25,958 nt of DNA from a virus: the IMG/VR virus record IMGVR_UViG_3300035698_005696, positions 1-25,958 of that record. One strand, 5' to 3'. This document shows, in pieces, positions 1,334 through 25,940 of this stretch (its first letter is position 1; the number at the start of each line of letters is the position of its first letter). A program made the position numbers and the translations under genes. The notes below the pieces were generated by a model. That model worked only from the letters and a program-made list of their open reading frames with translations, was not told where the DNA came from and did no database searches.

Positions 1334-1500
1334 TGACCAAGAAGGAACGCGAGGCTTTCGCCAAGATGCTGTACGAAGCGTACAACGACAATGCCGATGG
1401 GCAGATCAGCTACGAGTCGTTGGCACACACTCATGGCAAAGCCATGAGTACGATCCACAGGCTGGTGAATCAGCACAAGGCGAAGCTGGAGGAAGGCTAG
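1333..1500 (+). CDS. small helix-turn-helix protein, 55 aa
   Basis: A 55-residue protein begins at the ATG inside TAATG and ends with a TAG that overlaps the polymerase GTG (TAGTG). A charged N-terminal helix is followed by a homeodomain-like or sigma-type helix-turn-helix: helix around ISYESLAHTHG, turn, recognition helix around KAMSTIHRLVNQH. The size matches single-domain phage DNA-binding proteins. Coupling on both sides argues that it is truly expressed. It may bind DNA as a regulator or act as a replication accessory protein; the sequence does not decide. Confidence 0.65.
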   Translation: MTKKEREAFAKMLYEAYNDNADGQISYESLAHTHGKAMSTIHRLVNQHKAKLEEG

Positions 1501-3425
1501 TGCAGCAACTTCCATTCGATGCGTTCCTTCCACACAGCACGTGGATAGCCCCCCGTGTCTGTGATCTTCCTTCGTGGAAGGGTGTGCCTCGTGCCTGCAT
1601 CGACATCGAGACAAAGGACCCAGACCTTAGAGAGCTTGGTATCGGTGTGCGCCGTGACGGTGACATCATCGGGGCGTCATTTGCGTTCGAGGATGGCCAG
1701 GGGTTCTACCTCCCGTGGGGCCACGCTGGTGAAGGAAACCTGGACAGAGAGCAGTGTCTCCAATACCTGAGAGATCAGGCTGCTGTGTTCGAGGGTGTGC
1801 TCACTGGTGCCAACCTCCCATACGACCTCGACTACCTGGCAGAGTACGGTGTGATCTTTCACCGTGCAGAGATCAGAGACATCCAAGTTGCTGAGCCTAT
1901 ACTCAACGAGCACCGACTTCGGTACGGTCTTGACACACTGTGTGAAATCTACAACCTGCCTGGTAAGGACGAGACTCTACTGCGCGAGGCTGCCTCCGTC
2001 TTCAAGGTCAACCCAAAGAAGGGGCTATACCTCCTGCCAGCGAAGTTCGTTGGGCTCTACGCCGAGCAAGATGCCCACGCTCCGCTGCGTATCCTACGCA
2101 AGCAAGAGCGTTTGATTGAGGACCAAGGACTCTGGAAGATCTATCTGTTGGAGTGTGCGCTCACACCTATACTGATCAAGATGCGCCGACGTGGCGTGCT
2201 TGTAGATCAGGATAGGCTGGCTATGCTCACCACCCACGTTGAGAAGATGAAGATAGACATGTGCAAGGAGATCAATCGCCACACACCGATACACCTAGCA
2301 CCTACGGATCTAAAGAAGGCTGCCGCCATCGGACCCATATTCGAGTTCCTGGGGATAAAGGTTCCTCGCACAGCGAAGACCAAGCAGTTCTCCATCGACA
2401 AGGACTACCTGGACTCGATTGATCATCCCGTAGCTAAGATGATTAAAGAGGCTCGGGGCATGGATACAATGCACTCCTTCTGTAAGGGCATCCCCAGGCA
2501 CCTAACGCCGTCGAGCCGTGTCCATTGCACGATCAACCAACTCAAGTCAGACAAAGAGGGTGGCGGCACAAAGGGTACCGTATCTGGCAGGGTGAGTTCT
2601 CAAAATCCCAACCTGCAACAACAGCCGATCAGACACAAGACGCTTGGCGCTGTGTGGCGCGGCATCTACATGCCAGAGGATGGCTGCAAGTGGACCTCGT
2701 GCGATTACTCGGCCCAAGAGCCACGGCTCACCATCCACTACGCAGAGCTTACCGGATGCAAGGGTGCCAAGGCTGCGGGCGACAGGTTCCGCAACAACCC
2801 GAACGAAGATGCCTACGCACACATGATGAAGGTCACTGGCATGGATCGAAAGACCTGCAAAGTGATCGTGCTGGGCTCTAGCTACGGCATGGGCGGGGCA
2901 AAGCTATGCGACAGCCTTGGCTACCCGGTAGAGACAAAGAAGATCGAAGGTGTGTGGCGACGAGTTGCAGGGCCACAGGGCCAGGCAGTCATCAACAAGT
3001 TCCACGAAGAGGTGCCCTTCATTAGAGAGCTTGCTCGCAAGTGTGAGAAGAAGGCAAAGAACGTCGGACTTATCACCACGCTCCTTGGTCGGGGGATCCA
3101 CTTCGAGAAGGATGACCTTGGCAACTTCGAGTACACCTACAAAGCTCTCAATCGTTTGATCCAGGGTGGGTCTGCCGACCAGATGAAACAGGCCATGGTA
3201 ATTGCCGACAAGCTAGGCATCAAGATCCAGCTCCAGGTACACGACGAACTTGACTTTTCATCTAAGTCACCAGAGGAGGCAGAAGAACTTGCCCAGGCTA
3301 TGCGAGATGCAGTGCCTTTACTTGTGCCCAGTGTGGTAGACACCGAGTCCGGCGACAGTTGGGGTGAAATCAATGAAGATGGTAGGGCTCAATGTGAGGC
3401 GTTCTATGGAAAGGTTGCGGCATGA
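1500..3425 (+). CDS. family A DNA polymerase with 3'-5' proofreading exonuclease
   Basis: Replicative phage DNA polymerase of 641 aa. The exonuclease domain shows Exo I (DIET; D35, E37), Exo II (N105, D109 in LTGANLPYDLDYL) and Exo III (Y187, D191 in LYAEQD), so proofreading looks intact. The polymerase domain shows motif A (DYSAQEPRL, D402), motif B (R450, K454, Y462, G463) and motif C (QVHDELDF; H581, D582). No 5'-3' exonuclease domain is present, as usual in phages. The motif B position equivalent to E. coli Phe762 is Leu458. GTG start overlaps the upstream TAG and has a strong ribosome site (GGAGGAAGG) just upstream. The stop overlaps the next ATG. Confidence 0.97.
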   Translation: MQQLPFDAFLPHSTWIAPRVCDLPSWKGVPRACIDIETKDPDLRELGIGVRRDGDIIGASFAFEDGQGFYLPWGHAGEGNLDREQCLQYLRDQAAVFEGVLTGANLPYDLDYLAEYGVIFHRAEIRDIQVAEPILNEHRLRYGLDTLCEIYNLPGKDETLLREAASVFKVNPKKGLYLLPAKFVGLYAEQDAHAPLRILRKQERLIEDQGLWKIYLLECALTPILIKMRRRGVLVDQDRLAMLTTHVEKMKIDMCKEINRHTPIHLAPTDLKKAAAIGPIFEFLGIKVPRTAKTKQFSIDKDYLDSIDHPVAKMIKEARGMDTMHSFCKGIPRHLTPSSRVHCTINQLKSDKEGGGTKGTVSGRVSSQNPNLQQQPIRHKTLGAVWRGIYMPEDGCKWTSCDYSAQEPRLTIHYAELTGCKGAKAAGDRFRNNPNEDAYAHMMKVTGMDRKTCKVIVLGSSYGMGGAKLCDSLGYPVETKKIEGVWRRVAGPQGQAVINKFHEEVPFIRELARKCEKKAKNVGLITTLLGRGIHFEKDDLGNFEYTYKALNRLIQGGSADQMKQAMVIADKLGIKIQLQVHDELDFSSKSPEEAEELAQAMRDAVPLLVPSVVDTESGDSWGEINEDGRAQCEAFYGKVAA

Positions 3426-12257: not shown

Positions 12258-12812
12258 TTAGCAGAGCTTCAGGTTGGTCTGGTTCGTGACCACTTCAGGC
12301 GGGGCAATCCGCTCAAGAAGCTGCGGCAATACACCGTCGATCAAGAACTGTGCAAAGCCTGTTGTCTGCATGAAAATGAATCCATCACAAGGCTCTTCAA
12401 GCAGCTCGTCAAGAACATCCGACGCATCTTGCCCACTGGGCAAGATGTCCCCGTGAGAGTCGATGCTGGCAATTAGATCTTCAATGTGTTGGAACGCGCC
12501 TATTGACACAGGTCCAATGATCTCCTGCAAAGCCTTCCGAGTTCGATCCTCGTCGAAGATAAGAGCATCCTGCCCGAGCATCTTGGATACGAGCCAACTC
12601 GGGGTGTTGGCGCAGAGGAATTCCTCGAACGTCTTCTGTCCCCACTGATCTCTGTTAGGCCACTGCCCTGAGATGGCGACACCTCCAGCGGAGATCATTA
12701 GTAGGCCCATCGAACTCTCTAATGCGACATCAGCCGCCAACTCTTCTACGCCATCCTCTGTATCAGCGTGGATGTGCATGTGGAAAATACGTCCGGTAAC
12801 TTCAACTATCAT
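12258..12812 (-). CDS. hypothetical acidic protein, 184 aa
   Basis: Begins MIVEVTGRIFHMHIHADTED, a strand-rich start, and continues acidic with helical parts (ASDVLDELLEEPCDG, FAQFLIDGVLPQLLERI). No motif I can assign. Ribosome site GAGGAGA lies about 10 nt before the ATG. It overlaps the RlpA-like gene by 11 bp. Soluble; function unknown. Confidence 0.7.
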   Translation of the reverse strand: MIVEVTGRIFHMHIHADTEDGVEELAADVALESSMGLLMISAGGVAISGQWPNRDQWGQKTFEEFLCANTPSWLVSKMLGQDALIFDEDRTRKALQEIIGPVSIGAFQHIEDLIASIDSHGDILPSGQDASDVLDELLEEPCDGFIFMQTTGFAQFLIDGVLPQLLERIAPPEVVTNQTNLKLC

Positions 12813-13221
12813 TGCGTGGTCTCCTCAATAGTGTGATCTTTACTTTGGTTCGGCCCTTATGGCCAATGGCTTTCGCCAAGTCTGGGGTTAGATCGGCGCA
12901 CCCTTTGTACTTGCCGACACGTTCGCGATACTTCCGAGAGTTGAACCAGTTGCCGTCTGCATCTACCTTGCCGTAGGGACCTCGGTCAAGGACCACTCCG
13001 AAGGCAGACTGTTTGGTTTTCACGTCTGTGATCTTGATGCGTGCCCCCATTGGCCAGGTCCGGTGAGCGATGCCCATGTCGCCTGGGCGCACTGGCCTCT
13101 TGTAAAGGATCGTGGGCGTCCGTCCCCCGTACTTGTCACCGATGTGTCCGAACTGCGTGGACATACAGACCTGGGTCCTTGGCTGGTGGAGGGCTAGGAA
13201 GATTTGTAGTATCAAGATCAT
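12802..13221 (-). CDS. RlpA-like double-psi beta-barrel protein, 139 aa
   Basis: A short hydrophobic N-terminus (MILILQIFLALHQP), possibly a signal or anchor, is followed at about 35-130 by an RlpA/DPBB pattern: MGIAHRTWPMGARIKI, SAFGVVLDRGPYG (D79, R80, G81, P82) and a DLTPDLAKAIG segment. Septal RlpA proteins are lytic transglycosylases acting on peptidoglycan lacking stem peptides; several phage and secreted proteins reuse the barrel. Here it could act on the cell wall during lysis or entry. It is not next to the endolysin. The start overlaps the upstream stop (ATGA). The domain is well supported; enzymatic activity is not shown. Confidence 0.8.
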   Translation of the reverse strand: MILILQIFLALHQPRTQVCMSTQFGHIGDKYGGRTPTILYKRPVRPGDMGIAHRTWPMGARIKITDVKTKQSAFGVVLDRGPYGKVDADGNWFNSRKYRERVGKYKGCADLTPDLAKAIGHKGRTKVKITLLRRPRNDS

Positions 13222-13652
13222 TTGATCGTCGCCTCAAACAGTTTTCGTCGGAGCTTGGTGAACCGTGGCAGCTTGGCTTCGTCCATGATGACGTAGGGAT
13301 ACTTTTCGCCTTCATAGGGGCAGGGTACACCAAACTTCATGTCACGGATCATTCGTTTCAACCTTGCGGACTTTCCACCCCTACGCATCTCGGGCAGGAT
13401 GACCCGCTCCCACCTATGCTGGTTCATGATGAACTCGTGGTGCGCCTCACGCTGAGCAGTCTCTTCCAACAACTGATCTAGCATCTCGAAGGTGAGCGGC
13501 CCCTGGTTATGGTCGGCCAGCTTAATCCCTGGGGCCAGGCTTGGCAGCCCTAAGAAATCACCAGGCTGGTCGGCTCCTACTGGGCAGTCAGGTCCATGAG
13601 GGTCAAGGCCCAGGCCGCAACCTGGGCAACCGATTGTACCTTCCTCCCCCAC
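13218..13652 (-). CDS. zinc-ribbon protein with duplicated N-terminal module, 144 aa
   Basis: The N-terminal 25 residues form a Cys-rich module (EEGTIGCPGCGLGLDPHGPD, then C). Its DNA is nearly identical (64 of 67 bp) to the start of the gene at 14083-14391. The rest differs: a helical middle (FEMLDQLLEETAQREAHHEF) and a basic end. It resembles no family I know. The GTG start overlaps the TAG of the upstream gene (TAGTG), and the stop overlaps the RlpA-like ATG. The shared module was probably placed here by segmental duplication. Confidence 0.7.
   Translation of the reverse strand: MGEEGTIGCPGCGLGLDPHGPDCPVGADQPGDFLGLPSLAPGIKLADHNQGPLTFEMLDQLLEETAQREAHHEFIMNQHRWERVILPEMRRGGKSARLKRMIRDMKFGVPCPYEGEKYPYVIMDEAKLPRFTKLRRKLFEATIK
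13580..13646. repeat. repeat B, copy 1 (zinc-module start)
   Basis: 67 bp that match 14319-14385 with 3 mismatches. It encodes the CPGC module at the start of the 13218-13652 gene. The copies are 739 bp apart in the same orientation. Confidence 0.9.
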
Positions 13653-14086
13653 TACTTCAGCATCTCAATGCACTGGGCAACAGTATACGTGTGTGATCCT
13701 ACTTGGTCGATGGCCGTGATGGTGGCACTGCGCAGAGACTTGTTAAGGTTCGCAGTGAGAACTTTCTTGGCCCACTCGCGAGTGTCCTTTGTCCATGGAC
13801 CAGCTTCGTCTTCCCCGTTGCCGTAATCCCCTGCAAAGGCGCACTCGAAGGACTCCATCAACTCATCCACCCTAGCATCGAGCCAGCTTCCCAAGACGGG
13901 CTTGGGATTATGGGCGAGGACTAAAAGGTCACCTAGTCGTTCGAATTGAGCCTCTATGGAATCTTCTCGATCCCAGCCGCATTCCATCCGGTGACGGATT
14001 GCCTCCACCACTGTTGGGTAGATATGCCCGTGGTAGTAGTCGCCGCATGTGTAGAGCTTTGCGTCGTTGTATGCTTTGGTGTTCAT
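13652..14086 (-). CDS. hypothetical protein, copy 1 of a duplicated pair, 144 aa
   Basis: Paralogue of the gene at 14388-14816. Both start with (N/D)AKLYTC, continue with an acidic helical middle containing VD-(L/M)ME-F, then PWT-(D/S)TR(E/D)WAKKVL-ANL-KSLRSA and end VGSHT-(Y/F). The most conserved block is at about residues 95-130. No known family. The ATG overlaps the upstream stop (ATGA) and the TAG overlaps the next GTG. Retention of two diverged copies in one operon suggests a selected role. Confidence 0.75.
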   Translation of the reverse strand: MNTKAYNDAKLYTCGDYYHGHIYPTVVEAIRHRMECGWDREDSIEAQFERLGDLLVLAHNPKPVLGSWLDARVDELMESFECAFAGDYGNGEDEAGPWTKDTREWAKKVLTANLNKSLRSATITAIDQVGSHTYTVAQCIEMLK

Positions 14087-14391
14087 AGGCTTCGGCTCCT
14101 TACTAATTCTCTGAGCTTGGTGGTGACATACTCTGCCACGGAATCAGGGGTTCTACAATCCATGACATTGGTCTCTACCCAGAAGTCCAAGGTTCCGTAT
14201 ACGTGCATGATCTGCTTCTTCAATGCCAGCCGTCGATGCCGCTCCCGCTCGTACAAAGCCTGCCACCGCTGGCACTGCTTGACCAGCTTTGTCTTCTGCT
14301 CGACACCATCGCTCCGCACTGGGCAGTCAGGTCCATGTGGGCCAAGGCCCAGGCCGCAGCCTGGGCAACCGATTGTACCTTCCTCGCTCAT
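14083..14391 (-). CDS. chimeric small protein: zinc module fused to duplicated helical module, 102 aa
   Basis: The first 25 residues copy the CPGC module of the 13218-13652 gene. The region from about residue 33 on (CQRWQALYERERHRRLALKK, then QIMHVYGTLDF) copies the C-terminal half of the 14813-15319 gene, with 92 bp identical in DNA. The gene therefore looks assembled from two neighbours by recombination. The C-terminus (VAEYVTTKLREL) is also shared with that neighbour. Start chosen at the ATG overlapping the upstream TGA; a longer frame from 14409 adds six residues inside the upstream gene. Function unknown. Confidence 0.75.
   Translation of the reverse strand: MSEEGTIGCPGCGLGLGPHGPDCPVRSDGVEQKTKLVKQCQRWQALYERERHRRLALKKQIMHVYGTLDFWVETNVMDCRTPDSVAEYVTTKLRELVRSRSL
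14183..14274. repeat. repeat A, copy 1 (92 bp, identical)
   Basis: 92 bp identical to 14913-15004, same orientation, 730 bp apart, inside the helical-module coding sequence. Weaker similarity continues beyond (CAGCTTTGT-TTCTG). Exact identity at the DNA level, against diverged flanks, indicates a recent duplication or gene conversion. Confidence 0.95.
14319..14385. repeat. repeat B, copy 2 (zinc-module start)
   Basis: 67 bp matching 13580-13646 with 3 mismatches; encodes the CPGC module at the start of the 14083-14391 gene. Confidence 0.9.
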
Positions 14392-14816
14392 GTCACCATG
14401 TGGATGCACTCTTCCACGCTGAACGTGTGTGATCCTACCTCTTCGCAGGCGTGAGTGACCGCACTGCGCAGAGACTTGGTGAGGTTAGCGACGAGAACCT
14501 TCTTGGCCCAGTCGCGTGTGGAGTCTGTCCAAGGCTCAGCCTCATGATCATTGCAACCATGCGTCTCGTTGAAACGATCCTCGAACCGCTCCATCATGGT
14601 GTCAACCTCGGAGGCGATCCACTCTGGGCTGATTGGTGTCGCCGCGTAGGCATGGACTGTGATTGGGCCAATGCGTTCGCACTGCTCCTTGATAGTCTCG
14701 TCCTCTTCCCAGTCGCGCTCAAGAGCCTCGACAACTGCCTCGGGCCAGTCCGTGGTGGTGATGTACTCACCGTCTGTGCAAGTGTAGAGCTTCGCGTTCT
14801 TGAATTCTGGTGTCAT
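14388..14816 (-). CDS. hypothetical protein, copy 2 of a duplicated pair, 142 aa
   Basis: Paralogue of 13652-14086. The start is MTPEFKNAKLYTC at the ATG that overlaps the upstream stop (ATGA); the longer frame to 14897 lies in the neighbour. The conserved block is PWTDSTRDWAKKVLVANLTK. More acidic in the middle than its partner. Divergence is much greater than in the 92-bp repeat next to it, so the pair is older or under different constraint. Family unknown. Confidence 0.75.
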   Translation of the reverse strand: MTPEFKNAKLYTCTDGEYITTTDWPEAVVEALERDWEEDETIKEQCERIGPITVHAYAATPISPEWIASEVDTMMERFEDRFNETHGCNDHEAEPWTDSTRDWAKKVLVANLTKSLRSAVTHACEEVGSHTFSVEECIHMVT

Positions 14817-15319
14817 CGGGTTGCCTTCCGTAAGATGTCTCGAAGTTTGTTGGATACATACTCTGCCACGACTTTGGCCTTGGGGTCCACTATACACCCA
14901 GTCTCCATCCTAAAGTCCAAGGTTCCGTATACGTGCATGATCTGCTTCTTCAATGCCAGCCGTCGATGCCGCTCCCGCTCGTACAAAGCCTGCCACCGCT
15001 GGCAGGATTTGATCAGCTTTGTTTTCTGATCGGCGGGGGCTTTCACAAGGTTGCTGTTAAGCTCCTCAAGCCGTTGAGCCAATCTGCGGATTTTGATGTC
15101 GGATCGATAGTTCGCTTCCTTCTCACGCAGCTGCGACTCTTCGAGCCTCTTGGTGAGATCAAGTACGCGCTCCTCCAAGTGAGTTACGGTAGCCGCTAGG
15201 AACAGGTTGCACGCCTCCTTGTCATGATCTAAAAGTGACCTGTATACGACACCCTTCTCGTCTTCGTAGTCCAAGACCTCTTTGCATTCACCGCATCGCG
15301 TATGTACTCTAAGGTTCAT
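14813..15319 (-). CDS. zinc-knuckle and coiled-coil protein, 168 aa
   Basis: Starts MNLRVHTRCGECKEV (C9, C12), with a further Cys near residue 38 that could complete a zinc site. A long coiled coil follows (about 45-95: THLEERVLDLTKRLEES and LAQRLEELNSNLV). The C-terminal half is the duplicated helical module (CQRWQALYERERHRRLALKK). The ATG at 15319 is chosen; a GTG two codons earlier is possible. It overlaps the upstream stop by 11 bp. Donor-like gene for the chimera at 14083-14391. Function unknown; the zinc-plus-coil layout suggests nucleic acid or protein binding. Confidence 0.7.
   Translation of the reverse strand: MNLRVHTRCGECKEVLDYEDEKGVVYRSLLDHDKEACNLFLAATVTHLEERVLDLTKRLEESQLREKEANYRSDIKIRRLAQRLEELNSNLVKAPADQKTKLIKSCQRWQALYERERHRRLALKKQIMHVYGTLDFRMETGCIVDPKAKVVAEYVSNKLRDILRKATR
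14913..15004. repeat. repeat A, copy 2 (92 bp, identical)
   Basis: 92 bp identical to 14183-14274, within the C-terminal half of the 14813-15319 gene. Confidence 0.95.
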
Positions 15320-20777: not shown

Positions 20778-21505
20778 CGTCGCAAGCTCCCATCTAGCAT
20801 CGCTCGGATGCTGTTCTTGACGCTGCTTGGGAATGTCCCGCCCAGCATCCATTTCAAATAGCCCTTCTGGAGATAGGCTCGTGTCCCTTTGTGGGTACCG
20901 AACCCGAAGATCACTTTCCCTGCATCGTCCCAGAGGAAGTGGTTGGTGATGCCGACGAACTGGTGTCGGTCGGGCTCACAGATGTCGGCCAGCTCTTCCC
21001 AGCTGGCACCACCGAGTCCCCACTTGTAGATCATGGCCTCTAGCACGTCGCTAGCAGCCTTCACGTCCACGTCGGCAGCGTGAGCACCAGAGAGGGGCTT
21101 GCCCACGAACCTTTGGTGCGCAGACTCCAGGTTGCGGGGCTCCATCTGATACCAGAGCTTGAGCGGATCAACGATCAGCTTCTTCTTGAAGTCCAGCGTG
21201 ATTGCGCATCGCTCGAACTCCTCGGAGATCATAGCGATGTCAAAGCCAACGTTGTACCCGATGATGACCTCGGCCTCATCGAAGTATGGCTTGATGTCGT
21301 CGGCCACCTCAATGAACTTGGGGCAGTCCTTCAAGTCATTCATCGAGATACCATGCACAGCCTCGGCTTCTGGACTGATTGCGATCTTGGGCTTGAGTCG
21401 CCAGGCGAGGCTGCGCTGGTCGTCGCCCATGATGCACAGCTCGATCACTCTGTCGGTGCTGGTGTCTACGCCGGTTGTTTCTGTATCGAATGTAAGTGTT
21501 TTCAT
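20774..21505 (-). CDS. DnaQ-like DEDDh 3'-5' exonuclease with C-terminal DUF3820-like domain
   Basis: The exonuclease motifs are complete: DTETTG (D7, E9), GYNVGFD (D89) and HAADVD (H142, D147), giving the DEDDh catalytic set of DNA polymerase III epsilon-type enzymes. The C-terminal 50 residues (VIFGFGTHKGTRAYLQKGYL, then WML) look like the FGKyKG...YL-Wl motif of DUF3820, often attached to phage and bacterial exonucleases. It would degrade or edit DNA 3' ends; the phage polymerase has its own proofreading domain, so this may serve repair or recombination. ATG overlaps the upstream TGA. Confidence 0.9.
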   Translation of the reverse strand: MKTLTFDTETTGVDTSTDRVIELCIMGDDQRSLAWRLKPKIAISPEAEAVHGISMNDLKDCPKFIEVADDIKPYFDEAEVIIGYNVGFDIAMISEEFERCAITLDFKKKLIVDPLKLWYQMEPRNLESAHQRFVGKPLSGAHAADVDVKAASDVLEAMIYKWGLGGASWEELADICEPDRHQFVGITNHFLWDDAGKVIFGFGTHKGTRAYLQKGYLKWMLGGTFPSSVKNSIRAMLDGSLRR

Positions 21506-21753
21506 GCTTTTGCTTTACCAGTTAAGGGGTCACAGCCCCTAGAAATTCTTTTGCGGATCGTAGCCGGTGATGATCCCGTTAGCTCTGCGATCTGTGCGAC
21601 GGTCAGGGGGATTCCCAGTACGTCAACATGCGTGGAGAGTTTGGCTAGGTGACATTTCCTACTACAGAACTTTCTCTTGCGGAAGTTCTTAGGCTTCTCG
21701 TTGCTCCGCTGAGAGAACTTCTTTCCGCATCGTTCGCAGGGCTTCTCAGGCAT
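21502..21753 (-). CDS. single zinc-module plus HTH protein, 83 aa
   Basis: One zinc module (CERCGKKFSQRS...RKFCSRKC, spacing C-x2-C-x20-C-x3-C) is followed by a helix-turn-helix tail (LTVAQIAELTGSSPATIRKR) and DPLTGKAKA. The same modules make up the six-finger gene just upstream in transcription, so this is the minimal member of a local family. The layout resembles DNA-binding accessory regions of homing endonucleases, but no nuclease is attached. The stop overlaps the exonuclease ATG. Likely sequence-specific DNA binding. Confidence 0.75.
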   Translation of the reverse strand: MPEKPCERCGKKFSQRSNEKPKNFRKRKFCSRKCHLAKLSTHVDVLGIPLTVAQIAELTGSSPATIRKRISRGCDPLTGKAKA

Positions 21754-21852
21754 CTTTCTTCTTGCCTGTTATTGGATCAAGACCCTTCTTGAAACGTGCT
21801 TAACTGGAAGACTCGCCCCGCAAATTACACAAGAGTTCTCCCGTCCAGTCAT
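21749..21852 (-). pseudogene. relic of a third zinc-module/HTH gene (with 27-codon ORF)
   Basis: The ATG at 21852 overlaps the six-finger gene stop (ATGA) and begins MTGRENSCVICGASLPVKHV, like the start of a zinc module; this frame ends at a TAA at 21771-21769 after 27 residues. In another frame the following bases read RFKKGLDPITGKKKDA-stop, matching the C-terminus of the 21502-21753 protein (DPLTGKAKA) and overlapping its ATG. The two ends of a family member thus survive while the middle is deleted and the frame broken. The short ORF may still be translated. Confidence 0.55.
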
Positions 21853-22802
21853 TCCTTATCAACGACTTTGATTAACGGTTTACCATTTCGCAAACGGTGG
21901 GCAATCGTATTACCGGACACCCCTTCTATCTTTGCAATTTGTTTTACGGTCAACTGCATTCCATTTATGTTATGTGTGGGAGTAAGTATTTTTATATAAC
22001 ACTGCTTGCCACATGTTTTACGCAGTGTGAAAGCATGTGATTTTTCGTCACTACGCCTGGTAAATAACTTGCCACAGACTTCACAAGCCTTCTTAAAAAG
22101 AGGTTTCGTAATGAGTAATCTACAACACTCAAGACTGCATGTCTTTCGACCTATATACGCATTAGCCCCCTCATTGCGCCGCTGCTTAAAAATCCCCAGA
22201 CAGTTCTCACATTTTTTAGATGTGGGGACATCCCTCTTTTGGGATGCGTGACTACATGTAAGGCTGCATGTCTTACGTCTGAGATAGTTGACAGCCCGCT
22301 CCCCATAACGACGAGAAAAAGAATCCCCACAGGTCGAGCAGGTTTTAGTGGGGGGTGTTTTTAGAAGCTGTCGAGGTGCTTTAGATCCAGACGGTCTAGA
22401 TCTAAGCATGTGTCCACAAGACTTACTACAAGTCTTCCTTGGAAGGTACGCATAGTTGTCCTCTCCTTTACGGCGTGTAAAAGACACGCCGCAGTTTTCA
22501 CACACCTTAGAAACTGGAGCCTTTTTACGATTAGTTATTGCCGATTTTAAATGTTTGCAAGTATTGCTACATGTTTTTCTCTGACGAAAACGACAGGGTG
22601 ACTCTCCCGATCTTTTTACAAACGGCTTGTTGCACACACAACAATTTATCGAGCCCGGGGTGACGTGGGTGGCAAGTGCGTACTGACAAATCTTGCTACA
22701 TGTCTTACGGCGTCTGTAGTTGTAAGAACTTTCTCCACTCCGCTTGGTGAGCGTGTCCCCACAATTCTCACAGAGGTAGAGTGGTCTTGGCTTACCTCCC
22801 AT
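21849..22802 (-). CDS. six-module zinc-finger array with C-terminal HTH, 317 aa
   Basis: Six tandem zinc modules, each with a core C-x2-C-x20-C-x3-C or close to it and a shared RR-GE...Y--RKTCS--C pattern (for example CENCGVSFTRRKGEDNY; then RKTCSKSC). Linkers of 14-25 residues separate them. A helix-turn-helix follows (QLTVKQIAKIEGVSGNTIAH). It resembles a DNA-binding protein with repeated treble-clef-like units; no catalytic residues are visible. The coding DNA is AT-richer than its neighbours, suggesting separate acquisition. ATG at 22802 overlaps the helicase end by 11 bp and has GGAG nearby. Confidence 0.8.
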   Translation of the reverse strand: MGGKPRPLYLCENCGDTLTKRSGESSYNYRRRKTCSKICQYALATHVTPGSINCCVCNKPFVKRSGESPCRFRQRKTCSNTCKHLKSAITNRKKAPVSKVCENCGVSFTRRKGEDNYAYLPRKTCSKSCGHMLRSRPSGSKAPRQLLKTPPTKTCSTCGDSFSRRYGERAVNYLRRKTCSLTCSHASQKRDVPTSKKCENCLGIFKQRRNEGANAYIGRKTCSLECCRLLITKPLFKKACEVCGKLFTRRSDEKSHAFTLRKTCGKQCYIKILTPTHNINGMQLTVKQIAKIEGVSGNTIAHRLRNGKPLIKVVDKE

Positions 22803-24180
22803 ACTTCGACTCCACGAGCCCATCTACCCAGGATGGGGGTGCGTTTACTTCCTTGGCAATCCTCCGAGCGACTACTAGGTATGCTGCTTTGGCATTGTCG
22901 AGCTTGGCGCGAGTGACCTGCTCCAGCTCCGCTTGCAGTTCTTCTCGCACCTGGGCTGGGGTCCTGATTGGTTCATGCTCGTGGCCACACTGCTCACAGA
23001 TCAGAGAGCCTCGCTCCAATACAGCATCACACTCTTCGCACGCACGTACCCTGGGTTCGGTATCTTTGTCCGACTCTTTGACACCTTCCTTGAGGCCCCA
23101 CTCAATGTCGTCCCCTGGAATGATGTCCAGGCGAGTGACGTTGTTGCCATGATCAATGACGATAGGACGTGAGTTTTTGTAGCGACGTTGCCCACGCCCA
23201 GCCATCTGTATGAAGAGGCCCTTGCTCTTGGTCGGCCTGGCGATGATCACTGCATAAAGTTTAGGTAGGTCCCAGCCCTCGGTGAGAATACCTACGTTGC
23301 AGATCACTTCGACGGCCCCAGAGGATAGGTCCTTGATACAGTTGGCCCTGTCTTCTGCTGGTGTGTGGGCATCAAGGTGCATCGCTGGGATTCCGTTCCT
23401 TAGAAACTCGCTCACGAGACGCTTAGAGTGGGGCACTGTGCAAGCGAAGACTACCTTCGGCTTGTTTGTAGCGAGTCGAATCGCCTCCTCAACAACCCTA
23501 CCGACAAGGAACTTTTTGTCCACAGCCTTGGACATGCTGGCATTGGAGAAGTCTCCCTTAGATGTACGCGCACCCTTCAGTCCTACTCGGACCAGCTTAT
23601 CGATGTCACTTGGCGTGGACCAAGTGACAGGCTTGGCAATGTACTTCTGCTTCTGAAGATCACTGTACTGAGCGACGTTGTAAAGGACATTGAAGAAGTC
23701 TCCGAGCCCCTTCTTGTCGGACCTGCATGGCGTGGCTGTTAGTCCTAGCACCTTGGCCCTTGGCCGTTGCTTAACAATGTCCTGGTAGCTATCGGACGCG
23801 ACCCTGTGCGCTTCATCGAATACGATCAGGGTCACACCCTTGGGCACACCTCGCGAGACAATTGTTTGGACGCTGGCCACCTGTACTCGGGCCTTTTTGT
23901 TCACGCGCTCCTGTCCATGGAGCTGCTCCTCCTGGTCCATGAAGATACCAACGTCGAGCCCTAGTCCCACTAGGGACTTGTAGGCTTGGTCAATAAGCTC
24001 GTGCCGGTGGGCTACCCAAAGAACTTTCTTGTACTCAGGTGACGCCCTGACGAGCAAGGAGGCAATCACCGTCTTGCCAGCGGCAGTGGGTGCCACGGCC
24101 AGGACTTTCTTTGACTCCCTCAACGCCTTTCGTAGATTCTTTACAGCGCGTTGTTGGTATGGCCGCTTTCCAATCTTCAT
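22792..24180 (-). CDS. SF2 DNA/RNA helicase (DEAH-box, UvsW/RAD25-like) with C-terminal zinc ribbon
   Basis: Starts MKIGKRPYQQRAV (Q-motif-like). Walker A is APTAAGKT (about 30-37), motif II DEAH (122-125), motif III LTATP (147-151), and the C-terminal lobe ends with QMAGRGQRR (motif VI). A zinc ribbon (CEECD and CEQCG, about residues 376-398) is attached near the end, then a helical tail. Such phage helicases remodel branched DNA or R-loops during recombination-dependent replication, as T4 UvsW does; the same role here is inferred. It is the first gene of the P2 unit, with the -10 box ending 6 nt before the ATG. A near-complete helicase of 462 aa. Confidence 0.92.
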   Translation of the reverse strand: MKIGKRPYQQRAVKNLRKALRESKKVLAVAPTAAGKTVIASLLVRASPEYKKVLWVAHRHELIDQAYKSLVGLGLDVGIFMDQEEQLHGQERVNKKARVQVASVQTIVSRGVPKGVTLIVFDEAHRVASDSYQDIVKQRPRAKVLGLTATPCRSDKKGLGDFFNVLYNVAQYSDLQKQKYIAKPVTWSTPSDIDKLVRVGLKGARTSKGDFSNASMSKAVDKKFLVGRVVEEAIRLATNKPKVVFACTVPHSKRLVSEFLRNGIPAMHLDAHTPAEDRANCIKDLSSGAVEVICNVGILTEGWDLPKLYAVIIARPTKSKGLFIQMAGRGQRRYKNSRPIVIDHGNNVTRLDIIPGDDIEWGLKEGVKESDKDTEPRVRACEECDAVLERGSLICEQCGHEHEPIRTPAQVREELQAELEQVTRAKLDNAKAAYLVVARRIAKEVNAPPSWVDGLVESKYGR

Positions 24181-25385: not shown

Positions 25386-25500
25386 TATTTTCGTACCCAT
25401 CGGTGGATGGTGTGAGGTAGATCAGTTCTGGTGGCCCTGGCGTATGGATAAAGAGCGCCCTCCGCACGTCAGGTAGCGGGAGGTAGAACTCAACTAGCAT
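25378..25500 (-). CDS. small hypothetical protein, 40 aa
   Basis: The ATG shares its first base with the TGA of the frame ending upstream (TGATG), and the TGA overlaps the next start. The product (MLVEFYLPLPDVRRALFIHT, then PGPPELIYLTPSTDG) is strand-rich and proline-rich. A longer frame to 25698 is rejected, because its extra part lacks coding character. Function unknown. Confidence 0.55.
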   Translation of the reverse strand: MLVEFYLPLPDVRRALFIHTPGPPELIYLTPSTDGYENNV

Positions 25501-25678
25501 CAGTCCTTCGGATACCGTGAGCTGTAGGTGGGGCCGTAGTACATCGGGGGCTTGGCGAACGCGGCTTGAGTGGTGGGTTGCCTGCCCTGGCACGCTCGGC
25601 CATGATCTCAGCAGTACGCATCTCCAGCGCTGAGTAGTCGATGTTGGCCCATAGGAACCCGTCCTTTGGACTACCCAT
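25500..25678 (-). pseudogene. small gene broken by a -1 frame change (DYSALEMR motif)
   Basis: The ATG at 25678 overlaps the upstream TAG by 8 bp and encodes SPKDGFLWANIDYSALEMRT then AEIMAERA. After about 25600 the coding character moves to the -1 frame, which reads AAFAKPPMYYGPTYSSRYPK-D-stop and ends at TGATG, coupled to the next gene. One missing base near 25590-25610 explains this; I see no slippery heptamer. The DYSALEMR stretch resembles motif A of family A polymerases, but only over about 25 residues. It could be a natural mutation or a sequence error. Confidence 0.5.
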
Positions 25679-25940
25679 AGGACGACACAATGTGCCACTG
25701 GGGTACTGCACCCTTGAGATCAATGCCGGTGGTTTCTGCGAACTTCTTTAGGGTGTCGTCCCACGCTGGAACGACTTGTGTCAGCGCGTTACCGATAGTG
25801 ATCGGGCTGTCCCAGTCTCCGCTCATGCAGGCGTTGGGATGGTTGATGCAAATGAAGTAGCAGGGCTCCTCGTCGAATCCCCAGCTCCCCAGCTTGATGT
25901 CAAGTTCTTTGATCTTGTCCCAGATCTCTTTGTACTCCAT
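25671..25940 (-). CDS. hypothetical protein, 89 aa
   Basis: First complete gene from the right edge. Begins MEYKEIWDKIKELDIKLGSW, contains EEPCYFICINHPNACMSGDW and ends WHIVSSYG. Mixed alpha/beta, two or three Cys, no recognised domain. AAG precedes the ATG closely, but no strong ribosome site is visible. Only 18 bp of sequence lie upstream, so its promoter cannot be judged. Confidence 0.65.
   Translation of the reverse strand: MEYKEIWDKIKELDIKLGSWGFDEEPCYFICINHPNACMSGDWDSPITIGNALTQVVPAWDDTLKKFAETTGIDLKGAVPQWHIVSSYG

Follow-up and report, generated by a model that had tools for sequence, protein, structure and literature searches.

A head-to-tail repeat with a chimeric junction gene in an operon of very small phage genes

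Results

In an operon of five small phage genes, a unit made up of the 3′ part of gene A, gene B and the 5′ part of gene D is present twice, head-to-tail and colinear, and gene C is a chimera in which the zinc module of D is fused in frame to the helical module of A, both parents being kept (Table 1). As sequence, the repeat and the chimera are near certain. Their geometry is exactly what a single tandem duplication with one breakpoint within A and one within D would produce, junction chimera included, and supports such an event.

The window, meaning here the whole stretch analysed, corresponds to the entire record IMGVR_UViG_3300035698_005696 (25,958 bases), probably a fragment of a larger phage genome. 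The source virus is a phage near the Mesyanzhinovviridae. Like members of this family and related siphophages (YuA, PAE1, Epa5; also Pam3), it carries replication genes of the Mesyanzhinovviridae type, namely a family A DNA polymerase (full length at 1500-3425) and a DUF5906-type primase, the latter showing 47-49% identity to its counterparts in the Pseudomonas phages YuA and Epa5 (Mesyanzhinovviridae) and in Pseudanabaena phage Pam3. It differs from these phages in that they have no clear relatives of its genes A, C and D, a homologue of B being found only in the unclassified L008. No capsid or tail gene was recognised among the genes examined in this 26-kb fragment. A short frame at 25490-25723 (minus strand) contains a stretch resembling motif A of family A polymerases (NIDYSALEMR) and has no Pfam match at E 0.01; it may be what is left of a gene, or a contig end with a frameshift.

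Table 1. Genes, near-identical tracts and repeat copies of the operon
Feature	Positions	Strand	Description
Gene A	14813..15319	-	168 aa; CxxC zinc-like motif at the N terminus, then a coiled-coil-like middle and a helical module at the C terminus; upstream parent of C
Gene B	14388..14816	-	142 aa, acidic; first copy, nearer to the single L008 homologue
Gene C	14083..14391	-	102 aa, ATG start; zinc module of D with helical module and tail of A
Gene B′	13652..14086	-	144 aa, acidic; second copy, with 46% aa identity to B
Gene D	13218..13652	-	144 aa, GTG start; zinc module C-x2-C-x6-H-x3-C and a different C-terminal part; downstream parent of C
Helix tract in A	14913..15004	-	92 bp identical to 14183-14274
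Helix tract in C	14183..14274	-	92 bp identical to 14913-15004; offset 730
Zinc tract in C	14318..14385	-	68 bp, 3 mismatches vs 13579-13646
Zinc tract in D	13579..13646	-	95.6% identical to 14318-14385; offset 739
Repeat unit, copy 1	14318..15032	-	A 3′ part - B - zinc module of C
Repeat unit, copy 2	13579..14302	-	C 3′ part - B′ - zinc module of D
Inferred duplication junction	14303..14317	-	within C, separating the two copies

The operon runs on the minus strand in the order A, B, C, B′, D. The first-pass annotation had described five coupled genes with two paralogous pairs, and this holds: all five lie on one strand and have overlapping stop and start codons, with ATGA at A/B, B/C, C/B′ and between D and the next gene, and TAGTG at B′/D. 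The products of A and C are basic (pI 9.3 and 8.7), those of B and B′ acidic (4.5 and 5.0). A strong sigma-70-like promoter match (11/12, TG before the second hexamer) lies on the minus strand at 16027-16000, upstream of a lipoprotein-like gene and of the operon. Directly after D, the gene at 12802-13221 (minus strand) gives a weak RlpA-like match (NCBIfam E 7.6e-4, below the cut-off).

Aligned over 724 columns, 9 of them gaps, the two copies are identical at 478 of 715 bases. The offsets of 739 and 730 that had earlier been read as one duplicated unit are indeed the two ends of a colinear series, 739, 736, 733 and 730 from the zinc end to the helix end; every change of offset and every indel is a multiple of 3 and all frames are open. 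B and B′ are colinear between the tracts (offsets 736 and 733) and share 59% of their nucleotides; their differences fall mostly in third codon positions (75, versus 51 and 46 in the others), as expected of real coding genes. The gene at 14083-14391 had been seen as joining the zinc module of one neighbour to the helical module of another, and the alignment agrees: the start of C aligns only to D and the remainder only to A, each where one duplication predicts.

The earlier figures for the tracts, 92 identical bp and 3 mismatches, hold. The unit has the helix tract at one end and the zinc tract at the other; joined in C, they form its first two thirds, and neither has a further copy elsewhere in the window. 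Their blastn E-values (1.7e-27 and 4e-51) exclude chance. In blocks of 30 columns, identical columns number 23, 30, 30 and 30 at the helix end, 10-24 over the tail and B/B′, and 29 and 28 at the zinc end. The diverged stretch is a single continuous block between near-identical ends, from unit column 121 to about 655, and the edge of the helix tract is abrupt.

Codon-level divergence along the paralogues, a check suggested with the first-pass annotation, was followed by counting how many of the aligned codon pairs that specify one amino acid, Met and Trp excluded, are also the same codon. This held for 32 of 35 in the helix module and 19 of 21 in the zinc module, against 33/57 in B/B′ and 5/11 in the A/C tails. 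At full synonymous saturation with the codon usage of the window, 15.0, 7.7, 21.7 and 4.1 would be expected, respectively. Both modules exceed the pooled background of B/B′ and the tails (38/68; Fisher p = 1.4e-4 for helix and 2.7e-3 for zinc). Since synonymous sites are far more alike in the tracts than in this background, amino-acid constraint is not by itself a sufficient explanation. Between the window and its L008 orthologues, same codons amount to 189 of 400 in the primase and 30 of 77 in the gene at 12802-13221, and the longest identical run is 14 nt; a run of 92 identical nucleotides is therefore out of line for this lineage. The likeliest source of the near-identity is recombination, either conversion between the copies or exchange with a related phage. 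The synonymous excess bears out the earlier alternative of recent conversion or strong DNA-level constraint, conversion being the better supported of the two; exchange with a related phage is a possible third cause that had not been considered then.

The nearest relative found, L008, has a primase 54% identical to that of the window, matches the window genes at 12802, 12258 and 11789 (58% identity for the gene at 12802-13221) and carries one B homologue at 18896-18393, identical to B at 41 of 138 residues and to B′ at 30 of 137. B shares 21 residues with L008 only, B′ 10. The genes around this homologue differ from those of the window, and a second B or any A, C or D was not detected in the 34-kb record of L008, which may itself be a fragment. 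In the comparison with related phages that had been proposed earlier, the presence of one B in L008 agrees with a single B having been ancestral and with B being the slower copy, but L008, in which no A, C or D was detected, polarises the ancestry only partly and cannot show the order A-B-D before duplication. Scans of viral contigs, made in part for these genes, scans of genome contigs, and tblastn of A, B′ and D against the phage collection yielded no clear relative of A, C or D. A match of C to an RNA-phage-like contig (L004) concerns a short frame opposite the long frames of that contig and was taken as chance. In the literature titles and abstracts examined, we found no description of the locus or of the gene family.

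Judging from their anatomy, A and C would share a helical surface below different N-terminal heads, and perhaps bind each other or a common partner. The C-terminal part of D (residues 27-115) weakly resembles the major capsid protein family phrog_212, also used by the YuA-like phage PAE1, around residues 130-213 of that family. The hhalign probability is 73% and a profile built without the lead sequence gives D 10.5 bits, a score reached by no shuffled D; the E-value in PHROGs is only 0.38, and an 8-residue pattern match had provided the lead. D would then perhaps be a capsid-derived piece with a zinc head. An AlphaFold model of D, made with no alignment, is uninformative (pLDDT 35). The model of B (pLDDT 79) resembles uncharacterised phage proteins, but only weakly, and has no noteworthy match in the PDB. 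There was no PADLOC match.

Discussion

We think it likely that the repeat arose by duplication in place, with later conversion. An ancestral operon ...A-B-D... would have undergone a single head-to-tail duplication of about 720 bp, through illegitimate (short-homology) recombination or replication slippage, one breakpoint lying in mid-gene in A and the other directly downstream of D's zinc module, yielding the order A - B - (D5′:A3′ = C) - B′ - D. The junction would by luck have been in frame and the unit would have brought its own overlapping stop and start signals; C could then have been translated immediately, giving a small new protein that carries D's zinc module on the helical module of A. 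Afterwards B′ and the tails would have diverged, and gene conversion between the copies would have repeatedly reset both unit ends (the two modules of C), hence their near-identity. Here we infer the direction of the event and the conversion step, as well as the expression and usefulness of C; it is parsimony that sets the order of events, an undivided A-B-D having turned up in no relative. A near-match of 9 bases between the breakpoints in A (GCCGATCAG) and D (GCCGACCAG) was considered as a possible seed of recombination and discounted, its chance occurrence being roughly estimated at ~7%.

Phages commonly have recombination, which is all that conversion between copies needs, and the abrupt edge of the helix tract fits such conversion. 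It is not the sole possible route to the near-identical tracts. Related phages could have recombined by unequal exchange, the D of one being joined to the A of the other in a single step; the parents would have carried diverged versions of B and of the tail of A together with near-identical helix and zinc modules, and B and B′ would be alleles from two phages. In a variant, B′ and the tail of C would have been replaced later from a relative. The continuous diverged block between near-identical ends fits this exchange equally well as it fits conversion, the greater nearness of B to its L008 homologue also speaks for it, and mosaic boundaries of such kind are typical of phages. However, no donor phage was found in viral, phage or genome collections, and modules near-identical between otherwise distant phages would again require a recent exchange; we consider this origin unlikely. 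We give still less credit to the idea that the tracts are conserved as DNA by repeated recombination at this place, the operon being a site at which modules are shuffled and new small proteins assembled from zinc heads and helical bodies.

An additional role of the tract DNA or RNA, as a binding site, an RNA structure or an antisense gene, would account for synonymous sites that are nearly unchanged. Yet folding energy is ordinary (z -0.8 for the helix tract; -1.6 and -1.1 for zinc), 92 bp without change is long for a binding site, and neither tract carries promoter-like or terminator-like sites or an Rfam match, so that we hold such a constraint to be very improbable. Finally, the record is a metagenome fragment and assemblers fail at near-identical repeats, which raises the question of whether two strains, or a chimeric molecule, were joined by the assembler. 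Against this, the zinc/helix join in C contains no long shared sequence usable by an assembler, and the copies differ throughout while keeping open frames and in-frame indels; an artefact is in our opinion extremely unlikely.

A tandem duplication with a breakpoint-spanning chimeric gene is a known class of structural variant. The present case resembles this class in its head-to-tail copies, in the maintenance of both parents and in a junction gene that begins with 5′ sequence of the downstream parent and continues with 3′ sequence of the upstream one. It differs in affecting a phage operon whose very small genes overlap at their stop and start codons, and in copies old enough for one paralogue pair to have come down to 46% amino acid identity. 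As an event this is textbook; its particulars are the setting, a phage operon of small genes, and the way divergence forms a mosaic along the unit. In outline, interlocus gene conversion between duplicated genes is described as leaving patches of near-identity with abrupt edges in diverged paralogues (reviewed in PMC3924818). The tracts of the window, near-identical patches with abrupt edges in diverged paralogues, correspond to this outline, with the difference that conversion is deduced here from one sequence.

The locus provides a compact case in which a phage operon would gain a small gene in one step, the stop/start overlaps being copied along. Given relatives, its mosaic of near-identical and diverged stretches could serve to test conversion against inter-phage exchange as the homogeniser of modules.

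Elsewhere in the window, the gene at 21849-22823 (minus strand) encodes a 324-aa protein in which we counted by eye six zinc-finger-like units of the form C-x2-C...RKTC-x3-C, followed by a helix-turn-helix-like C-terminal end; it has no Pfam match. The adjoining gene at 21502-21753 (minus strand) has a small product that carries a single unit of this form and ends similarly. These two genes are a second case of module multiplication in this phage.
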